Below, piece by piece: positions 27,777 to 61,300 of a stretch of DNA of 64,000 bases. Below the pieces are notes generated by a model that had not been told where the DNA came from, searched no databases, and was given only the letters and a program-made list of their open reading frames with translations. How positions within the stretch are numbered: the first letter of the stretch is position 1; every line of letters begins with the position of its first letter. A program made the position numbers and the translations under genes. Source of the DNA: an uncultured Acidobacteriaceae bacterium (GTDB lineage Bacteria > Acidobacteriota > Terriglobia > Terriglobales > Acidobacteriaceae); NCBI GenBank assembly GCA_903842065.1, contig CAIMKZ010000013.1:62001-126000 (forward strand). Direction: 5' to 3'.

Positions 27777-27950
27777 ACCTCAGAACTCTTTCGGCCACTA
27801 TAAAAGCTGTGCCCCGTGTATCGCGGTGTCTTATCGCGATGAGCGGGAGGGCCGCCGCGAAATCCTTTCATCTCCGTGCAACAAGCTCAGCGGTACAATC
27901 GTCTTGCGCCTCCGCAACCATACGCGCAACTCTCTACCGGAGCCACCCAC

Positions 27951-30900
27951 GTGCGCCGCATCTCTCCACTCGTCCTCATCTTCCTCTCTGCCTCTCTCTC
28001 CGCCCAAACAATCGACCTTCCCTCCAGCAAGCAACTCATCGGACCCGCCCCCGGCCAGCCCCAGCGCCTCAACTCCGAACCCGTCTCCATCGCCGTCTCT
28101 CCCGACAGCCGCTACGTCGTCACCGTCAACGACGGCTACGGCACCTTTGAGTCGAAGTACCTTCAGTCCCTCGCCGTTCTCGACACCCAGACCGGCAAGC
28201 TTACCGACTTCCCCGACGCCCGCACCGGCATTCGCATTCGCCAGACCCTCTTCTCCGGCCTCGCCTTCAGCCGCGACGGCGCGCATCTCTACGCCAGCCT
28301 CGCCTCGCTCACCAACCCCACCGGCAACGGCAAAGATGCCACCGGCAGCGCCATCGTCGTCTACAGCTTCACCAACGGCGCAATCGCCCCCGAGCGCCTC
28401 ATCCCGCTTCCCCTCGACCCGCTTTCCCCCGGCCGCACCACCCGCCTCATCGGCTTCACCGAAGGCACAAACGGCGTCCCCTATCCAGCCGCCATCGCCG
28501 TCCTCGAATCCGGAAAGCTGCTCGTCGCCAACAACCTCTCTGACAGCGTTCTGCTCATCGACTCCGCCACCGGCAAAATCGAAAATCGCTTCGATCTCTC
28601 CGCCGCCGACGCAGTTCCCTCCACCTACCCCATCGCCCTCGCCGTATCGAAAGACAACCGCCGCGCCTTCGTCGCCCTCTGGAACGCCTCCTCGATCGCT
28701 GAACTCGATCTCGTCGCAAACAAAGTAGCCCGCAAACTCGATCTCCTCAAGCCCGCCGACCCCATCGCCGCCGGAACCCATCCCTGCGCCTTCGTGCTCG
28801 CGCCCAACGGAAGCACGCTCTACGTAGCCTTGGCCAACCGCGATGCCGTTGCCGCCGTCGATCTCCGCTCCAACCACTTCGCCGTCACCGGCTACTTCAA
28901 CACCCGCCTGCCCGGCCAGACATACTTTGGGGCGGAGCCCGTCGCGCTCGCCCTCAACAGCAGCGGCTCACGCCTCTACGCCGCCAACATGGGCTCCGAC
29001 GCGGTAGCCGTCCTCGATACAGCCTCGCTCAGAGCCGCCATAAAAAAGCACACCATGGCCGAGCCCATCGGATTCATCCCCACCGAGTGGATGCCGCTCT
29101 CGATGGCGCTCTCTGACGGCAAACTCTACGTCGCCACCAACAAGGGCAAGGGAACAGGCCCCAACAGCGCTCCTCAGCCCACAGCCGCCGGACTCACGCT
29201 TCCCGCAGGCACCGGCGCATTTACTTACGTCGCCTCGCTGCTCTACGGCTCGCTGGCCTCCATCGACGAAGCCGCTATCTCCGACAACCTCCCGCAGTGG
29301 ACTGAAAACGTCGTCTCCGCAAACCGCCTCAAGGCCGCAGAAGAAAAGATCGCCTTCGCCTCCGGCATCGCGAACCCCATTCGCCACGTCATCTACATCA
29401 TCAAAGAGAACCGCACCTACGATCAGGTCCTCGGCGACCTCGCACAGGACGGCAAGCCCGTCGGCAACGGCGACCCCTCGCTCACCATGTACGGCGCAGC
29501 CGTCACGCCCAACCAGCACAAACTCGCCCTCCAGTTCGGCGTCCTCGACAACTTCTTTGACTCCGGCGACGTCTCCGGAAACGGCCACGTCTGGTCCAAC
29601 GCCGCCATCGGCACCGACTACCTCGAGCGCACCTGGCAGCAGAACTACCGCTCTTCCCAGCGCACCTACGACTTCGAAGGCGCGGTCGCCAATGGCTACC
29701 CCCTTCTCCAGCACATCCCCGACGTCAATCAGCCATCGAGCGGCTATCTCTGGGGAAACCTCGCCGCCCATAACAAAACCTACTACCACTTCGGCGAGTA
29801 CATCTCCTCCACCTTCTGCAACCAGAAGGCCGTCGCCGATCCCACGCTCGGACCCATGCTCTCCGGCCCCGCCTGCGCGCAACAGTCCATCGCTCCCGGC
29901 GAGCCGCTCCCCTCAGAGTGGGGCGGCGGAACCAATCTCTGGCCCTGGCCCATACCGCGCCTCGCCGCCAACACGCCCACCAAGCCCGAACTCGTCGGCC
30001 ATTACGCCGCTGAGGCGCCGGACTTCAACATGGCCATCCCCGACCAGTTGCGTATGAACGTCTTTCTCGATCACCTCAAGGCATGGACCGCCGATCGAGC
30101 GCAAGGCCGGGATACGATGCCCCAGTTCATTGAGATGCGCCTCGGAAACGACCACACTGCCGGCACAACTCCCGGAGGCCCCACGCCCAAATCCTCCGTC
30201 GCCGACAACGACCTTGCTGTAGGCCGCGCCATAGAAGCCATCTCGCACTCGCCCTATTGGGACGACACCGCCTTCTTCATCCTCGAAGACGACGCCCAGA
30301 ACGGCGCAGACCACGTCGAAGCCCATCGCTCCATCGCCTTCGTCGTCAGCAAGTACGCGCCCCGCGGCCCCAACGGCTCACCCGTCGTCGACAGCCGCTT
30401 CTACACCACCGTCAGCGTCATCCGCACCATGGAAACGCTTCTCGGCCTGCCCCCGATGAACTCGAACGACGCCTTCGCGCCGCTCATCTCCACGCTCTTC
30501 ACCGGCCACGGCGATCAGCCCGCCTACACGGCCGACGCCTCTAACCGCGACAACGGACTCATCTACGCCGCCAACCCAAAGACCGCCACCGGCGCAGCCG
30601 AAAGCTCGAGGATGGACTTCACCCATCCCGACCGCGCGCCAACCGACAAGCTGAATGTCATTCTGTGGAAAGACGCCATGGGCGACAAGCCCGTCCCCGC
30701 CGTGCTCAAACAGCGCGGCAAAGCGCAGACTCGCGATGACGACGATTATGCGCCGCCGGTTTCCATAGGTCTGGTCAGCTGTGCATGCCCGCCGTGGCGC
30801 GGCAAATCAGCCCGGGGAAGCTCGACCTTCAACCCGCCACTCTCAACCATCCAAAACTCTGGGTGCCCCAGGTCTGGATTTTCAGACCTGGGAAAGACCG

Positions 30901-30977
30901 GTCCCAAACCCGCCCACCTACAGCGCCACTTCTGCCGGCAGTGCAACTCTTGCCCGCGCCCACTCACGCCAATCTAA
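27951..30977 (+). CDS. YncE-like beta-propeller / phosphoesterase fusion
   Basis: A ~1008-residue exported protein: signal peptide (R-R-I-S-P-L-V-L-I-F-L-S-A-S-L-S-A-Q), a seven-bladed YVTN/YncE-type propeller (residues ~30-450; blades end in patterns such as S-R-Y-V-V-T-V-N-D), then an alkaline-phosphatase-superfamily phosphoesterase domain (I-I-K-E-N-R-T-Y-D-Q at ~residue 485, F-I-L-E-D-D-A-Q-N-G-A-D-H near 780). The GTG at 27951 with GGAG upstream is the best start. The last ~65 codons run through a type-1 palindromic repeat and into the next gene's 3' end, so the natural C-terminus near D-D-D-Y-A-P-P has probably been replaced by repeat-derived sequence. Confidence 0.82.
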   Translation: MRRISPLVLIFLSASLSAQTIDLPSSKQLIGPAPGQPQRLNSEPVSIAVSPDSRYVVTVNDGYGTFESKYLQSLAVLDTQTGKLTDFPDARTGIRIRQTLFSGLAFSRDGAHLYASLASLTNPTGNGKDATGSAIVVYSFTNGAIAPERLIPLPLDPLSPGRTTRLIGFTEGTNGVPYPAAIAVLESGKLLVANNLSDSVLLIDSATGKIENRFDLSAADAVPSTYPIALAVSKDNRRAFVALWNASSIAELDLVANKVARKLDLLKPADPIAAGTHPCAFVLAPNGSTLYVALANRDAVAAVDLRSNHFAVTGYFNTRLPGQTYFGAEPVALALNSSGSRLYAANMGSDAVAVLDTASLRAAIKKHTMAEPIGFIPTEWMPLSMALSDGKLYVATNKGKGTGPNSAPQPTAAGLTLPAGTGAFTYVASLLYGSLASIDEAAISDNLPQWTENVVSANRLKAAEEKIAFASGIANPIRHVIYIIKENRTYDQVLGDLAQDGKPVGNGDPSLTMYGAAVTPNQHKLALQFGVLDNFFDSGDVSGNGHVWSNAAIGTDYLERTWQQNYRSSQRTYDFEGAVANGYPLLQHIPDVNQPSSGYLWGNLAAHNKTYYHFGEYISSTFCNQKAVADPTLGPMLSGPACAQQSIAPGEPLPSEWGGGTNLWPWPIPRLAANTPTKPELVGHYAAEAPDFNMAIPDQLRMNVFLDHLKAWTADRAQGRDTMPQFIEMRLGNDHTAGTTPGGPTPKSSVADNDLAVGRAIEAISHSPYWDDTAFFILEDDAQNGADHVEAHRSIAFVVSKYAPRGPNGSPVVDSRFYTTVSVIRTMETLLGLPPMNSNDAFAPLISTLFTGHGDQPAYTADASNRDNGLIYAANPKTATGAAESSRMDFTHPDRAPTDKLNVILWKDAMGDKPVPAVLKQRGKAQTRDDDDYAPPVSIGLVSCACPPWRGKSARGSSTFNPPLSTIQNSGCPRSGFSDLGKTGPKPAHLQRHFCRQCNSCPRPLTPI
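30861..30895 (+). repeat. Palindromic repeat type 1 (CTG/CAG variant)
   Basis: The arm end reads GGTCTG with CAGACC opposite, a compensatory change relative to GGTCTC/GAGACC. It is read as the C-terminal tail of the upstream phosphoesterase (C-P-R-S-G-F-S-D-L-G). Confidence 0.9.
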
Positions 30978-41390: not shown

Positions 41391-42629
41391 TTACTCTTCT
41401 TCCGGCTTGTTCTCGTCCACCTGATCGGTAGCAATCCTCTCCAGCTGATTCCGCCAGTCCAGAGACTCCACAAACGCGCGCGACTCTCGCCACCCCGGCT
41501 CCACAATCACGTGCAGCTCCAGATACACCCGCGTTCCCAGCAGCGACTCGATCTTCCTTCGCGCTGTCGTTCCAATCTCCTTCAGCTTCGATCCGCCCTT
41601 GCCGATCAGGATCGCCTTTTGCCCCGAGCGCTCGCAGTAGATCGCCGCCATGATCCGCGTCAGCGGATTCCTCGAACCCTCTTGCGGTTCCTCGAACTCC
41701 TCGATCACCACCGCCGAGGCGTAGGGAACCTCCTCGCCGGTCTCGATCAGAATGCTCTCCCGGATCAGCTCGGCCACCATGAACCGCACCGGCTGGTCCG
41801 TGTACTGGTCCTGCGGATAGAAGCGCTCGCCCTGGGGAAGCACATCCACGATCCGCTTCACCAGGATGTCGAGCCCGTCCTTCTTGCGCGCGCTCACCGG
41901 GATCACCTGCGCGAAGTTGTGCTGCTTCATCAGCCCTTCGATCAGCGGAAGCAGATCCTCCTTCTTCACCAGATCGACCTTGGTCAGCACCAGAAACACC
42001 GGACAATCCAGCTTGCGCACCAGCCCGAACAGAAACTCATCCTCGCTCGCCCAGCCACCGCGCGCGCCGCGGGCACTTTTGTCTTTCGGCTGAGTTTCAT
42101 GTCCGGGTGCCCCAGGTCTCGATTTTGAGACCTGGGAGACACCAACACTTAACTCGGCGCCACCATCTTCGCCACCAGAGCTGGGTGCCCCAGGTCTCGA
42201 TTTTGAGACATGGGAGACACCGGCACTCGACTCACCACTGGACTCGCTCTCCTCCAGCATCACCCGCCGCGTCGCATCCACAAGTACCAGCACCAGATCC
42301 CGCGTCTCTAGAGCCTCGTGGACCTCCTGGAGCATTCGCCTGTCCAGATGCGACCCCGGCTTGTGAACCCCCGGCGTATCCACAAACACGATCTGCGTAG
42401 CCGGATGCACGCCCTTGTGCGCCGGAACCTCCACCATGCCCATCACGCGGTTGCGCGTCGTCTGCGGCTTGGCGGTCACAATTGCCACCTTTTCGCCGGT
42501 CAGCGCGTTCAGCAACGTACTTTTGCCCACATTGGGCCGCCCTACAATAGCTACAAATCCAGATCGCAAGTAATTATCTCCAGCTTCTATTATCGCTGCA
42601 TTCCGGCCTCCGCGCCTTATTTCGCGCAT
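41391..42629 (-). CDS. era: GTPase Era with repeat-encoded insertion
   Basis: Essential ribosome-assembly GTPase that binds 16S rRNA. G1 is G-R-P-N-V-G-K-S, G3 D-T-P-G, G4 T-K-V-D, and the KH domain has I-G-K-G-G-S-K-L-K-E-I-G. The length is 412 residues against about 300 normally. Roughly 70 extra residues lie between G3 and G4 and contain V-S-H-V-S-K-S-R-P-G-A-P and V-S-Q-V-S-K-S-R-P-G-A-P, each encoded by a type-1 palindromic repeat; the two copies are 78 bp apart (26 codons). ATG 42629 has no clear ribosome-binding site; a TTG at 42569 with GGAG upstream would remove 20 residues and start just before G-F-V-A-I-V-G-R. Confidence 0.93.
   Translation of the reverse strand: MREIRRGGRNAAIIEAGDNYLRSGFVAIVGRPNVGKSTLLNALTGEKVAIVTAKPQTTRNRVMGMVEVPAHKGVHPATQIVFVDTPGVHKPGSHLDRRMLQEVHEALETRDLVLVLVDATRRVMLEESESSGESSAGVSHVSKSRPGAPSSGGEDGGAELSVGVSQVSKSRPGAPGHETQPKDKSARGARGGWASEDEFLFGLVRKLDCPVFLVLTKVDLVKKEDLLPLIEGLMKQHNFAQVIPVSARKKDGLDILVKRIVDVLPQGERFYPQDQYTDQPVRFMVAELIRESILIETGEEVPYASAVVIEEFEEPQEGSRNPLTRIMAAIYCERSGQKAILIGKGGSKLKEIGTTARRKIESLLGTRVYLELHVIVEPGWRESRAFVESLDWRNQLERIATDQVDENKPEEE
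42105..42140 (+). repeat. Palindromic repeat type 1, inside era
   Basis: Perfect 10-bp arms CCCAGGTCTC and GAGACCTGGG. Read on the minus strand it encodes S-Q-V-S-K-S-R-P-G-A-P in the Era frame. Confidence 0.95.
42183..42218 (+). repeat. Palindromic repeat type 1, inside era (second copy)
   Basis: One arm mismatch (GAGACATGGG), giving His instead of Gln in S-H-V-S-K-S-R-P-G-A-P. It starts 78 bp from the first copy, keeping the reading frame, whereas intergenic pairs are 76 bp apart. Confidence 0.95.
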
Positions 42630-42646
42630 TCTGCTATATCTAGACC

Positions 42647-43549
42647 ATGCGCCGCACTCTCGCCAGCATCGCACTCTGCTCGCTCGCCGCCGCGCTTTTC
42701 TGTGCCATCCCCACCCGCGCCCAGCAGACCTCCGCCGACTTCCGCTGGACCGACTTCCACTCCCCTGAAGACCAGAACATCCTCGTCTGGGTCTCGCGCT
42801 CTCTTGAGGCCGCCAACTGGACCTCGATTCGCGAGATCGGCGTCAAATACGATGCCGCTCTGGTCGTAACCGAGCAGCGCAATCCTCAGGCCGCGCCCGG
42901 CTCCGGCACGTTTACCGTCTGGACCGCCTCGCTCACCACCCACGACTTCGCCCCGCTCGTCTCCGGCGCTAACCTTCGCTGGTTCGATCCCGTCCGCTTT
43001 GCCGACGACGCCACCGACGAGTGGCCCCTGCTCTACGACAACTGCCGCGACTGCCAGCCCAGCACCTACTTCACCGCCTTCTACTACGACATCCGCACGC
43101 ACGCCTGGAGCGCCCGCTGGATCAGTGGAGACCACGGCGCGCCCGTCTGGAACACATCCCGCCCCGCCGGCACCAACTGGACCCAGGCCTACGCCCTGCT
43201 CTCAAACGGCGAGGGCCACTCGACCCTATACACCTGGAATCACTTCGATTATCCGAAGCCTCGCACGGTCCAGGACTTTATCACCCGCTACGATCTCGAC
43301 CCCTTCAACCACGTCGAGCGCAGCGCCGTCACTACCGCCCCAACGCCTCCGACGCCTTCGGTCGAAAAGCAGCTCGCCGACTTCGAACTCCGCATCTGCC
43401 GCGCCGAGACTGCGCCTCCGGGCCTGGCACGCGGTCAGGACACCGAACTCTGCCAGAACCTGCTCAAAGGCCATGTCACACGTCAGCCCGTCACCACTCC
43501 GCCGGCCAACAACCGCGGCCAGGCTGCACCGCCCCGGGCGCGCCGTTGA
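42647..43549 (+). CDS. Hypothetical exported protein
   Basis: A 300-residue protein with signal peptide (S-L-A-A-A-L-F-C-A-I-P-T-R-A-Q). Tryptophan-rich mature part: D-F-R-W-T-D-F-H-S-P-E-D, and four cysteines including D-N-C-R-D-C. The C-terminus is Pro/Ala/Arg-rich. No family is recognised. Start codons of this gene and of era (42629) are only 17 bp apart and divergent, so their promoters must overlap or lie within each other's coding sequence, unless era starts at the TTG at 42569. No ribosome-binding site is visible, compatible with leaderless translation. Confidence 0.7.
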   Translation: MRRTLASIALCSLAAALFCAIPTRAQQTSADFRWTDFHSPEDQNILVWVSRSLEAANWTSIREIGVKYDAALVVTEQRNPQAAPGSGTFTVWTASLTTHDFAPLVSGANLRWFDPVRFADDATDEWPLLYDNCRDCQPSTYFTAFYYDIRTHAWSARWISGDHGAPVWNTSRPAGTNWTQAYALLSNGEGHSTLYTWNHFDYPKPRTVQDFITRYDLDPFNHVERSAVTTAPTPPTPSVEKQLADFELRICRAETAPPGLARGQDTELCQNLLKGHVTRQPVTTPPANNRGQAAPPRARR

Positions 43550-43628
43550 ATTAGCTTCCGCAATGGTCAATCGAGGTCAGATTTACCCTCCACACTCCAA
43601 ATAACATTCAACTCGAATGGAGTGTGAA

Positions 43629-45158
43629 ATGAACGATCTTCCCGGATTTGGGCGATCTGCCCTGCTTGTCCTGACGCTAGGGCTTTTGACCGCCGGATGC
43701 CACGCCAATCCATCGCAGGTGTCCGCGGATACAAATCAGGCCGGTGCGCAAGATCCAGCTACGGATCCGGCGGCAGTCAACCTGGCCCCCGGTGTTGCTG
43801 ACTCAAGCCCCCAGCAGCCCCAGACGAACCGCGTACAGCAGACCCAGACCTACAGCGCCCAGCAGAGCGCTCCGCGCCCGCCTTATGACGGCGACCCGCA
43901 GTACCAGCAGCAGAATCAGTATTCGGATGATCCGGGATATGGGCAGCAGCCGGTATACTACGCGCCCGAGCCGCCGCCACCGCTGCTTCAATATGAGCAG
44001 CCCTATGCTCCCGGCGACGACTACATCTGGACGCCCGGCTACTGGGCCTGGACTCCAGAGGGCTATTACTGGGTGCCCGGCGCATGGGTTGAAGCTCCCT
44101 ACCAGGGCGCGCTCTGGACCCCCGGCTACTGGGGCTTCTGGCAGGGCCGCTACGGCTTTTACAACGGCTACTGGGGAGAGCACGTCGGCTACTATGGCGG
44201 CATCGACTACGGCTTCGGCTACATCGGCTTCGGCTATGAAGGCGGATACTGGGGCGGCGGCCACTTCAACTACAACCGTTCAGTCAATCGCATAGAGCCC
44301 GGCCGGGCGCGTTACGTCTACGACCGCCCAATGAGCGATAACAACAGGCTCAGCATCCGCGTAAGCTTCAACGGAGGATCGGGTGGAATCCAGATGCGGG
44401 CGCGGCCCGCGGAGCTATCCGCGCTGCGGGAACAGCATTCTGCTCCCATGAGGGCGCAGATCGAGAATGAACACTCCGCCAGCACCAACCGGGCGCAGTT
44501 TGCGAAAGTCAATCAAGGCCGCCCGTCGAGTGTGGTTGTCAATGCGCCGCTTCAGGCCGATCGCAACGTAAGAGCGCCGGAAGGGATCCAGCAGCGCCAG
44601 CAGCAGCAAGATCATCAGCGGCAGGCGGGAACTCAGCAGCAGCGCCAGGCATCTCCGCCGCAACAGGCACCACAACAGCAACGCCAGACGGGTCCGCAAC
44701 AGCAGGCACCACAACAGCAACGCCAGACGGGTCCGCAACAGCAAGCACCACAACAGCAGCGTCAGGCAACCCCGCAGCAGCAGGCTCCGCAACAGCAGCG
44801 CCAGATGGCCCCGCCGCAACAGGCACCACAACAGCAACGTCAGGCAACCCCGCAGCAACAGGCACCGCAACAGCAACGCCAGACGGCCCCGCAGCAGCAG
44901 GCACCACAACAGCAACGTCAGGCAACTCCGCAGCAGCAGCGCCAGGCGACTCCGCAGCAGCAGGCTCCGCAACAGCAGCGCCAGATGGCCCCGCAGCTGC
45001 AGGCACCACAACAGCAACGCCAGGCGGCTCCACAAGAACAAAGGCAGCAGGCTCCGCAGGTTCGCCAGGCCCCTCCGCAACAGCAGCGCGCAGAGGCTCC
45101 GCAACAGCAGCGGCAGCAGGCCCCGCAGAACTCCGAGCGGGAGAAACCGAAGAACTAG
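43629..45158 (+). CDS. YXWGXW-repeat lipoprotein with Gln-rich tail
   Basis: A 509-residue protein. Lipobox L-L-T-A-G-C (Cys ~residue 24). After a Gln/Pro-rich segment, residues ~130-220 contain Tyr/Trp/Gly repeats (W-T-P-G-Y-W-A-W, Y-W-V-P-G-A-W, W-T-P-G-Y-W-G-F-W) of the YXWGXW family, found in surface and outer-membrane lipoproteins. From residue ~340 to the end is a low-complexity tail of near-identical 13-residue units (P-Q-Q-Q-A-P-Q-Q-Q-R-Q-T/A-G/T/A). The ATG at 43629 has GGAG upstream and is preferred over 43617. A 27-bp hairpin follows. Confidence 0.8.
   Translation: MNDLPGFGRSALLVLTLGLLTAGCHANPSQVSADTNQAGAQDPATDPAAVNLAPGVADSSPQQPQTNRVQQTQTYSAQQSAPRPPYDGDPQYQQQNQYSDDPGYGQQPVYYAPEPPPPLLQYEQPYAPGDDYIWTPGYWAWTPEGYYWVPGAWVEAPYQGALWTPGYWGFWQGRYGFYNGYWGEHVGYYGGIDYGFGYIGFGYEGGYWGGGHFNYNRSVNRIEPGRARYVYDRPMSDNNRLSIRVSFNGGSGGIQMRARPAELSALREQHSAPMRAQIENEHSASTNRAQFAKVNQGRPSSVVVNAPLQADRNVRAPEGIQQRQQQQDHQRQAGTQQQRQASPPQQAPQQQRQTGPQQQAPQQQRQTGPQQQAPQQQRQATPQQQAPQQQRQMAPPQQAPQQQRQATPQQQAPQQQRQTAPQQQAPQQQRQATPQQQRQATPQQQAPQQQRQMAPQLQAPQQQRQAAPQEQRQQAPQVRQAPPQQQRAEAPQQQRQQAPQNSEREKPKN
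44640..45130 (+). repeat. In-gene 39-bp tandem repeats (Gln-rich)
   Basis: About eleven imperfect copies of a 39-bp unit encoding 13 residues rich in Gln, Pro and Arg. Variation is mainly at the two residues before the last Pro (T-G, A-T, M-A, T-A). Slippage-prone, so copy number may differ between strains. Confidence 0.8.
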
Positions 45159-50020: not shown

Positions 50021-51244
50021 CTAATCGCAGATCGTATCGGAATCGCAGAACATCGGCTCGTCGAGTTCTGCCCCCACAGATGGATCATCTCCGTCCGTGG
50101 GCTGAGGCCCGGCCGCAAAAAACCGCTCCACCTCGTCCAGCACCGCAACCCCGGTCCGCGCGTGATAGATCGCGGCGCGCAGCTTGGCGCCTCCCGGAAT
50201 TCCGTGCGTGAACCACGTCGCAAACTGCTTCATCTTGCCCGCAGGATCGCCCAGCCGCGCATCCCGTGGCAGGTCTTTGGTCGCCTCGGTCTCGGCCAGC
50301 AGCATCTCAAAATATGCCCGGATCATCCGGTACCGATCCCCGCCCGTTGGCAGGTCATAACGGCCTGTCGACGTGTACTGGGCAATTTGACGAAATATCC
50401 ACGGATTCGCCGGTGCGGCCCGGCCCACCATCACTCCGTCGCAGCCCGTCTCGGCAACCATAGCCACCGCGTCCTCCGGCGTTCTTATGTCCCCGTTGCC
50501 GATCACCGGAATCTTTACAGCCTGCTTCAGCCTTCCGATCCACTCCCACTGCGCCTGACCGCTGTAGCCCTGCTCGCGGGTCCGCGCATGAAGCGCCACC
50601 GCGTCCAGCCCCTCGGCCTCCGCCATCCGGCCAAGTTCCAGGCACACAATCTGCTCATCGTTCCAGCCCATCCGGAACTTCACGGTGAAGGGAATCGTCA
50701 CTGCCTTCCTGACTTCTCTAAAGATCTCCCCGATTCGCGGCAGATCCCTGAGCAGCCCCGACCCGCCATTCGACCCCACAACGCGCTTCGCCGGGCAGCC
50801 CAGGTTCAGGTCCACCAGGTCGAACCCCGAATCCTCGACGATCCGCGCCGCTTCGGCCAGCGTCTCCGGCTTCGACCCGAACAGCTGCGCCCCGATCGGA
50901 TGCTCGTCCTCGTAGAACGTCAGGTATCGCCGCCGCTTGGTCTCCCGCATCCGGCTCAGCCCGTCGGCCGAAGTAAACTCCGTCACAATCAGCCCGCACC
51001 CGGACTCGGCGTTCGTGATCGCGCCTTCAATCGCCAACTCGTCCACGACATTGGGTGCCCCAGGTCTCGATTCTGAGACCTGGGAAGGCAAGGAGTCCGT
51101 TCCGCCACCGAACAAACTCGCATGACGGATAAACCGCCGAAACACCGTATCCGTCACTCCGGCCATCGGCGCCAGCACCGTCGCCGGGCGAATCACGACC
51201 GGTCCGATCCGCAGTTCGGCAGGCACGCGCGCCTCATCGGGCAT
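50021..51244 (-). CDS. dusB: tRNA-dihydrouridine synthase with repeat-encoded insertion
   Basis: A flavin-dependent tRNA-dihydrouridine synthase of 407 residues (normal length about 330). A-P-M-A-G-V-T-D-T-V-F-R-R starts the barrel, D-L-N-L-G-C-P-A-K-R-V carries the catalytic Cys, and I-G-N-G-D-I-R-T-P-E-D-A and G-V-M-V-G-R-A bind FMN. Residues ~44-82, between F-R-R-F-I-R-H-A and C-G-L-I-V-T-E-F, are an insertion that includes S-Q-V-S-E-S-R-P-G-A-P (54-64), encoded by a type-1 repeat. Start 51244 matches the family; 51301 would add residues without precedent. Confidence 0.9.
   Translation of the reverse strand: MPDEARVPAELRIGPVVIRPATVLAPMAGVTDTVFRRFIRHASLFGGGTDSLPSQVSESRPGAPNVVDELAIEGAITNAESGCGLIVTEFTSADGLSRMRETKRRRYLTFYEDEHPIGAQLFGSKPETLAEAARIVEDSGFDLVDLNLGCPAKRVVGSNGGSGLLRDLPRIGEIFREVRKAVTIPFTVKFRMGWNDEQIVCLELGRMAEAEGLDAVALHARTREQGYSGQAQWEWIGRLKQAVKIPVIGNGDIRTPEDAVAMVAETGCDGVMVGRAAPANPWIFRQIAQYTSTGRYDLPTGGDRYRMIRAYFEMLLAETEATKDLPRDARLGDPAGKMKQFATWFTHGIPGGAKLRAAIYHARTGVAVLDEVERFFAAGPQPTDGDDPSVGAELDEPMFCDSDTICD
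51053..51086 (+). repeat. Palindromic repeat type 1, inside dusB
   Basis: Perfect arms CCCAGGTCTC/GAGACCTGGG with GATTCT loop, read in the DusB frame as S-Q-V-S-E-S-R-P-G-A-P. This is the same strand and frame as the two copies in era. Confidence 0.95.
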
Positions 51245-51329
51245 CGCATGCTCTCTCGGGTTGTCCCAGTCCTTCTTTACCGTGAATCCCCGGCCCGCCA
51301 TACAAACCTCGCGTCCCATAAACGAACGC

Positions 51330-58149: not shown

Positions 58150-58436
58150 GGGTGCCCCAGGTCTCGATTCTGAGACCTGGGAAAGATCGACCCTCAACCC
58201 GCCACTCTCAACCAACCACAAATATGGGTGCCCCGGGTCTCGATTCTGAGACCCGGGATAGATCGACGCACAACCCGCCACTCTCAACCAACCACAAATA
58301 TGGGTGCCCCGGGTCTCGATTCTGAGACCCGGGAAAGATCGACCCTCAACCCGCCACTCTCAACCAACCACAAATATGGGTGCCCCGGGTCTCGATTCTG
58401 AGACCCGGGATAGATCGACGCACAACCCGCCACTCG
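58150..58436 (+). repeat. Tandem array of four type-1 palindromic repeats
   Basis: Copies start at 58150, 58226, 58302 and 58378, exactly 76 bp apart. The unit is the 35-bp hairpin plus a conserved ~41-bp linker with C-A-A-C-C-C-G-C-C-A-C-T-C character. The first copy has CCCAGGTCTC arms; the other three have CCCGGGTCTC paired with GAGACCCGGG, a compensated change. Confidence 0.95.
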
Positions 58437-61177: not shown

Positions 61178-61212
61178 GGGTGCCCCAGGTCTGGATTTTC
61201 AGACCTGGGAAA
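61178..61212 (+). repeat. Palindromic repeat type 1 (CTG/CAG variant)
   Basis: GGTCTG paired with CAGACC as at 30861. A type-2 copy begins exactly 76 bp further on. Confidence 0.92.
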
Positions 61213-61253
61213 GCAAACCCCTAAACCCGCCCCTCTCCACCACCCACGAAAAT

Positions 61254-61300
61254 GGGTGCCCCACCCTCGCGGCGTCGTTGTTTTTGCCGCTAGGGTGGGG
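61254..61300 (+). repeat. Palindromic repeat type 2
   Basis: Arms CCCCACCCT and AGGGTGGGG with inner GCGGC/GCCGC and a T-rich loop. Confidence 0.85.

Follow-up and report, generated by a model that had tools for sequence, protein, structure and literature searches.

How can a widely conserved GTPase of ribosome assembly, essential in E. coli, carry two copies of a palindromic repeat within its own reading frame? The question is raised by the era gene in a stretch of 64,000 nucleotides from an uncultured Acidobacteriaceae bacterium, here called the window. A sequence-only reading of this DNA had noted about 70 extra residues between the G3 and G4 motifs of Era and had assigned two nearly identical peptides therein to palindromic repeats.

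The insert in Era and its repeat

The era gene (41391..42674, minus strand) has an open frame of 427 amino acids when read from GTG; ATG at 42629 and TTG at 42569 are other candidate starts in frame. The product passes the family models NF000908.1 (339.8 bits, NCBIfam cut-off 237) and TIGR00436.1 (249.5 bits, NCBIfam cut-off 116.25), carries a GTPase domain (PF01926) and a C-terminal KH domain (PF07650, KH_2), and its conserved Era motifs are intact. The AlphaFold2 model, built with 45 sequences, has a mean pLDDT of 79.8 with 189 of 395 residues at 90 or above. With the low-confidence stretches omitted, it matches the Aquifex Era-RNA complex (3iev_A) with a Z score of 30.6 over 286 residues and an rmsd of 2.4. 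By family models and by predicted fold the product is an Era, for which GTP hydrolysis and binding to the 3′ end of 16S rRNA are predicted. Across the 4.09 Mb draft genome (106 contigs) we found no second Era; the next-best match, a strong one on contig C106, was considered as a second era and rejected as it is Der. Thus, the insert sits in the sole Era detected. A gene close to era (43617-45158, plus strand) encodes a protein whose long C-terminal region is Q-rich and tandemly repeated (QQQRQxxPQQQAP).

The insert occupies 42045..42263 (minus strand). It forms a loop of 73 residues between strand beta-4, which follows G3, and helix alpha-3, where phmmer places 3 residues in the S. aureus Era (9jkp). 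The G3-G4 distance is 131 residues, whereas outside the family it is mostly 60-67 (exceptions are 75 and 125 within the same order and 70-76 elsewhere). The figure of about 70 extra residues is therefore right in comparison with a typical Era. In the other Acidobacteriaceae rows that we read the distance is 66-103, and relative to the shortest loop of its own genus (G3-G4 77) the window Era has 54 extra residues.

Besides its flanks the loop consists of two 32-bp palindromes, which we call REP, and a spacer, all read from the minus strand. Two identical 9-mers, VSKSRPGAP, are the translations of these palindromes, in agreement with the earlier assignment. The first copy in the protein (SHVSKSRPGAP, 42183..42214) has one stem mismatch, that is one broken pair, the second (SQVSKSRPGAP, 42105..42136) has a perfect stem of 10 bp, and the spacer lies between them at 42137..42182. 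The two repeat units are 90% identical over 51 nt, with a start-to-start distance of 78 bp. The RNA of the insert folds better than 200 out of 200 shuffles (z -3.5), but the palindromes alone would give such folding. Within the insert, at residues 111-170, the model has ten-residue pLDDT means from 53 to 35, and residues 32-43 are also low. The prediction is thus that of an Era core with a low-confidence surface loop, probably disordered, and it fits the earlier expectation of a surface loop.

The palindrome is a REP-like element: it is short, it has many dispersed copies and it is mainly intergenic in the sample examined. In the window we counted 24 strand-wise matches, that is 12 sites (up to 3 mismatches), versus 0.14 expected, which excludes chance. 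Genome-wide there are 130 forward and 110 reverse matches, which overlap because one palindromic site can match both strands; the reversed-pattern control gave 0. Among the same-genus genomes searched 67 of 69 contain the REP. The ordinary form of the element is seen at 58150..58404, where four units form an array with 76 bp in three of three intervals and no coding frame passes through. With a stricter pattern we collected 58 REP loci from the window and 40 stretches of its own genome, which were chosen for REP content and taken in listing order. Three loci were too near to a contig end, and a conserved gene spans 3 of the remaining 55, namely era, dusB and the gene of a penicillin-amidase family protein. 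We did not count REPs whose open frame had a non-coding score on one side or both (e.g. L220:2513, upstream of a likely start). Also left out of the in-frame count is an open frame of 1044 residues (27843-30974, plus strand) which runs through the REP at 30861-30892 near its 3′ end; its last residues look REP-encoded, or the frame ends differently from the protein's usual end.

The spacing of the two copies had been taken as a sign that selection added 2 bp to keep the frame. The distances themselves hold for the window, 78 bp in era and 76 bp in the array, but five further tandem pairs from the sampled genome stretches are spaced by 76, 77, 77, 72 and 78 bp. The 78 bp lie within this natural spread of 72-78 bp, so no frame-restoring 2 bp are needed, and we rejected the spacing as proof of frame repair. 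The 78 bp are explained equally well if the array that landed had a spacing divisible by three from the outset. The spacer of era aligns with other REP spacers of the genome and is the best of the eight spacers compared (score 38 versus a shuffled mean of 15.7, sd 5.1; 0 of 500 shuffles reach 38), the other seven comparisons giving p values of 0.004-0.052. We therefore conclude that era contains a piece of a real REP array.

We also sought a transposase for the Era-type REP, and none was established. Y1_Tnp has nine matches in the genome. None of the eight Y1 loci examined has a Y1 gene flanked by a REP pair; L252 and L255 hold one REP copy each, the former about 300 bp from the Y1 gene. At 61178-61300 of the window a REP adjoins GGGTGCCCCACCCTCGCGGC, apparently the start of a second palindrome family; we also observed this family in L231, within the dusB loop, and flanking the Y1 transposase match L258 on either side.

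The same loop across the genus

The earlier reading had proposed a comparison of Era length and insert with close relatives. With a search that reads through stops we examined 59 genomes of the same genus. The genus itself is larger, and most of its named members are bins from environmental metagenomes. A strong Era match was present in 53 of the 59 and absent in six (G015, G021, G026, G030, G041 and G046). In 50 genomes the loop is complete on one contig; in G003, G029 and G040 it is cut by a contig end, and these are outside the 50. In G017 era is likewise interrupted and lies on two contigs. Both these contig ends inside era and the six missing Era matches may reflect repeat-caused assembly breaks.

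Repeat-bearing loops recur across the genus. The loop length is 19-86 residues (median 34, n = 50), the 73 residues of the window being the fourth longest. Loop repeats were scored against shuffled loops and the orientation, A or B, was assigned by the better score. A dispersed repeat is recognisable in 31 of the 50 loops: a REP in 26 (orientation A in 19, B in 7) and only other families in five, namely the GGGGCTAAAGCCC palindrome in three and a GGGAAC minisatellite in two. The other 19 loops are without recognisable repeat. Strictly, 32 loops pass the scored test for some repeat, but the additional one (L048, score 24) is weak and was counted as none. A REP of orientation A in L013 and a GGGAAC repeat in L055 had been seen by eye; both failed the scored test and were removed from the final counts.

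Several further families share the loop. The GGCACGACTAAAGTC repeat is clear in one of the three GGGGCTAAAGCCC loops, and the TGTCATCCTGAGCG repeat in three loops, twice beside a REP and once beside the minisatellite. TTCGACAAGCTCAGG is nested in the REP in four loops and, by eye, in two more that are cut by contig ends. The TGTCATCC repeat scored in six loops: it is clear in L009, L016 and L058 and weak in L048, and the matches in L011 and L018 overlap the similar TTCGACAAGC repeat. The GGCACGACT repeat scored in two loops, one of them weak (L044, score 20). With the era copy counted, the carrier genomes have 100, 22 and 164 matches to the GGGGCTAAAGCCC palindrome, the two REP-bearing carriers of TGTCATCCTGAGCG have 39 and 27 matches, and the six carriers of the nested TTCGACAAGCTCAGG have 16, 4, 5, 32, 3 and 0; the count of 0 is from G049, where the divergence of the nested version exceeds what the search tolerated.

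Each of the 19 orientation-A REPs in Era is read in the same one of three open frames, and several share flanking residues. This frame is hydrophilic, though not to the highest degree among the three. The orientation-B REPs, found in seven species, are read in two frames. In the neighbouring genus g72 we saw by eye a REP-like peptide in the Era loop of three of the five genomes read. A different kind of insert is present in L059 (G060, same order but other family), where Era has a long acidic insert between alpha3 and beta5 that is, by eye, not recognisably repeat-derived.

Era is not the only host. In the window dusB (50024..51319, minus strand), which encodes a tRNA-dihydrouridine synthase (TIGR00737.1, 306.5 bits, cut-off 293.3), is a second gene with an in-frame REP (51053..51084, minus strand). 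The copy is translated as SQVSESRPGAP, in the same frame as in Era, and falls in a loop after RRFIRHASLF. Elsewhere in the genome a penicillin-amidase family protein (L191:2053-4719, plus strand) carries SQVSKARPGAP in an acidic spacer. All three genes use the common REP frame S-Q/H-V-S-x-x-R-P-G-A-P. We compared 30 dusB loci, our own included, and could read the loop after R-H-A-S-L/V-F in 26; repeats were called by eye and are unscored. A REP is present in orientation A in L221 and L222 and in orientation B in L242 and L247, L231 has a different palindrome ending in GGGGCACCC, and about half of the readable loci have ATCAGGG-type minisatellites. As varied repeats fill the dusB loop too, at least two hot loops exist, that of Era being one of them.

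In other genomes (30 REP loci, one per genome, own genome excluded, two being edge cases) the REP is in frame in 4 of 28 loci. The hosts are UvrC and MnmG, both of which pass their own family cut-offs, an oligopeptidase B-like S9 peptidase, whose score is below the model cut-off, and, as the fourth, an acyl-CoA-dehydrogenase-like protein. All four REPs read G-A-P-G-L-x-S-E-T-W; the in-frame loci L279 and L283 have a second open frame as well, and L287 was scored on the copy neighbouring the matched one. The GAPGLxSETW peptides are carried by UvrC of L277, seemingly two or three in a row, MnmG of L279 and the oligopeptidase B-like protein of L288. The oligopeptidase B-like protein has a second REP-like peptide, SQVPESGPGAP. 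Thus, the insert first noted in the window is real, but the earlier reading missed a genus-wide process, several repeat families and more host genes including DusB.

Origin and maintenance of the loop content

We consider it likely that a piece of a REP array landed in frame in a permissive, disordered beta4-alpha3 loop of Era, where it is translated and tolerated, and that this loop serves genus-wide as a landing site with repeat turnover. We suggest the following course of events. Short repeats would be spread by a mobilising machinery, mostly into intergenic DNA, a Y1/RAYT-type transposase being a candidate. As the REP type of the window is open in five of its six frames, repeats which happen to fall in frame into a disordered surface loop could survive. 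Purifying selection would remove only events that shift the frame, bring in a stop or disturb the fold. Since it would keep the frame and not the sequence, the loop content would drift, be deleted and be refilled in a nearly neutral manner.

The turnover can be followed on a maximum-likelihood tree of 64 era rows, built with the loop left out. As the tree has 19 open forks and its bootstrap is unsettled, we use only the starred sister groups as an argument. Among the 50 genus rows the tree requires at least 20 changes of loop content; an earlier count of 22 changes had included the by-eye calls in L013 and L055 and the neighbouring genus. Nine starred sister pairs or trios differ in content: L006/L007, L009/L028, L014/L058, L010/(L041, L044), L032/L050, L035/L038, L037/L048, L023/L046 and L029/L040. 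Since supported sister species differ, turnover is fast. Very close relatives are missing from the set: outside the loop, the most similar Era row has 81% identity. Several repeat families, with the REP in both orientations, turn over at one Era loop throughout the genus.

Alternatively, a single REP insertion in an ancestral Era could have been inherited by the genus and the neighbouring genus and later altered by gene conversion between REPs. The one frame of all 19 orientation-A copies together with the peptide in the neighbouring genus suggests that many A copies could stem from one old insertion. In addition, several A copies have common flanking residues and even the shortest loops of the genus are longer than those of distant Eras. 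Against this stand the seven species with the opposite orientation and two frames, and the sister species of REP carriers that hold other families in the loop. Moreover, the era copy of G053 is identical to two further copies in that genome, where its subtype has nine matches. The subtype test gave a varied picture elsewhere: in G058 a search with up to 3 mismatches gave no copy of the subtype besides the one in era, a relic, in G013 there was no match, and G011 has eight matches to the subtype although its own Era lacks it. We regard a single ancestral insertion as possible but on the whole unlikely.

It is also conceivable, though we find it doubtful, that in this lineage certain loops of core RNA- and DNA-processing proteins are repeat exchange sites, at which targeted insertion or recombination between repeats continually swaps dispersed repeats of many families. 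If so, Era and DusB would contain a repeat-encoded segment particular to each species, and ribosome assembly or tRNA modification would be affected. Somewhat more doubtful is an adaptive loop, in which REP peptides or RNA hairpins would tune Era, for instance in ribosome assembly or mRNA stability, and be kept by selection. The recurrence in Era, DusB, MnmG and UvrC, all RNA- or DNA-processing enzymes, the stable RNA hairpins and the single, hydrophilic though not most hydrophilic frame of the A copies in Era would be in accord with such a role. However, 19 of the 50 loops do without a recognisable repeat, the shortest loop has only 19 residues, unrelated peptides replace each other, and enzymes of other kinds such as the penicillin amidase and the oligopeptidase also carry REPs.

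All 50 complete loops are open in the frame of the gene, whereas for each of the remaining five frames the number is 19-33 of 50; for base-shuffled loops the chance that all 50 are open is log10 P about -24. The Era loci came from the stop-tolerant search, and no complete loop was excluded for a broken frame. We therefore conclude that the loop is selected as translated sequence, that is for a readable frame. The earlier claim that the insert is translated and tolerated agrees with the sole Era found, the kept frame and the open loops of the genus, from which we infer translation in the cell. Bypass of the insert during translation, or its removal in the manner of an intron or intein, could draw on the strong RNA hairpins, yet with loop lengths that vary freely and a frame kept open in every loop while the others are closed in 17-31 of the 50, it is highly improbable. 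Still less credible are a misassembled repeat and a decayed era gene backed by an intact one elsewhere in the genome. Although the own genome is a draft of many contigs and contigs of relatives end inside the loop or split the gene, only one Era was found besides Der, with intact motifs and scores over the cut-offs, and the same kind of insert occurs in independent genomes.

Comparison with known systems

The REP/RAYT (REPIN) systems resemble the present case in that tens to more than 100 dispersed palindromes per genome occur together with Y1 transposase genes. They differ in that no REP-flanked Y1 gene was established among the eight Y1 loci here. The GTAG/CGTC REPs, as described in PMC3733652, are mostly intergenic, and some are in frame within open reading frames of several species. 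The genes concerned often encode DNA repair or RNA enzymes (uvr, rec such as recB, truB, tRNA synthetases), recB of X. campestris and X. oryzae has a REP at about the same site, and intragenic REPs were proposed to lie in flexible linkers or loops. In the acidobacterium Koribacter versatilis, according to the same source, a repeat family belongs to a tyrosine transposase. In contrast to these elements the Era-type palindrome begins GGGTGCCCC and by eye shows no adjoining GTAG or CGTC tag in any of the 12 copies of the window, and several repeat families share the one loop in Era. Era and DusB are not named in the section on REP genome distribution of PMC3733652, and the words 'era' and 'GTPase' are absent from its main text. 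Judged by titles and the openings of abstracts, we found among the papers listed no report of a repeat insertion in Era or in core genes of Acidobacteria; one of these papers deals with misassembly in Porphyromonas.

According to PMC10969869 and PMC3733652, the Rickettsia palindromic elements (RPEs) are short dispersed repeats of ten families, with a quoted length of about 150 bp, that are translated in frame inside unrelated conserved proteins. The likeness is the in-frame insertion, here in Era, DusB, penicillin-amidase, UvrC, MnmG, oligopeptidase B-like and acyl-CoA-dehydrogenase-like proteins. The comparison is by description and not by sequence, and the REP core of 32 bp differs from the about 150 bp of the RPEs. 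A further difference is the repeated turnover seen here, which affects a single loop in one protein throughout a genus.

Known in-frame palindromic repeats come mainly from Rickettsia, with scattered genes elsewhere. The one Era loop is a natural record of repeats turning into protein, with dozens of outcomes in one genus of soil bacteria, so that the step from non-coding repeats to protein sequence, and its cost, becomes testable with natural replicates. On the practical side, short-read assemblies can break at era, and in metagenomes the gene may be called wrongly. In summary, in-frame palindromic repeats as such are already known; new are the lineage, the gene and the genus-wide turnover of several repeat families at one loop of Era.
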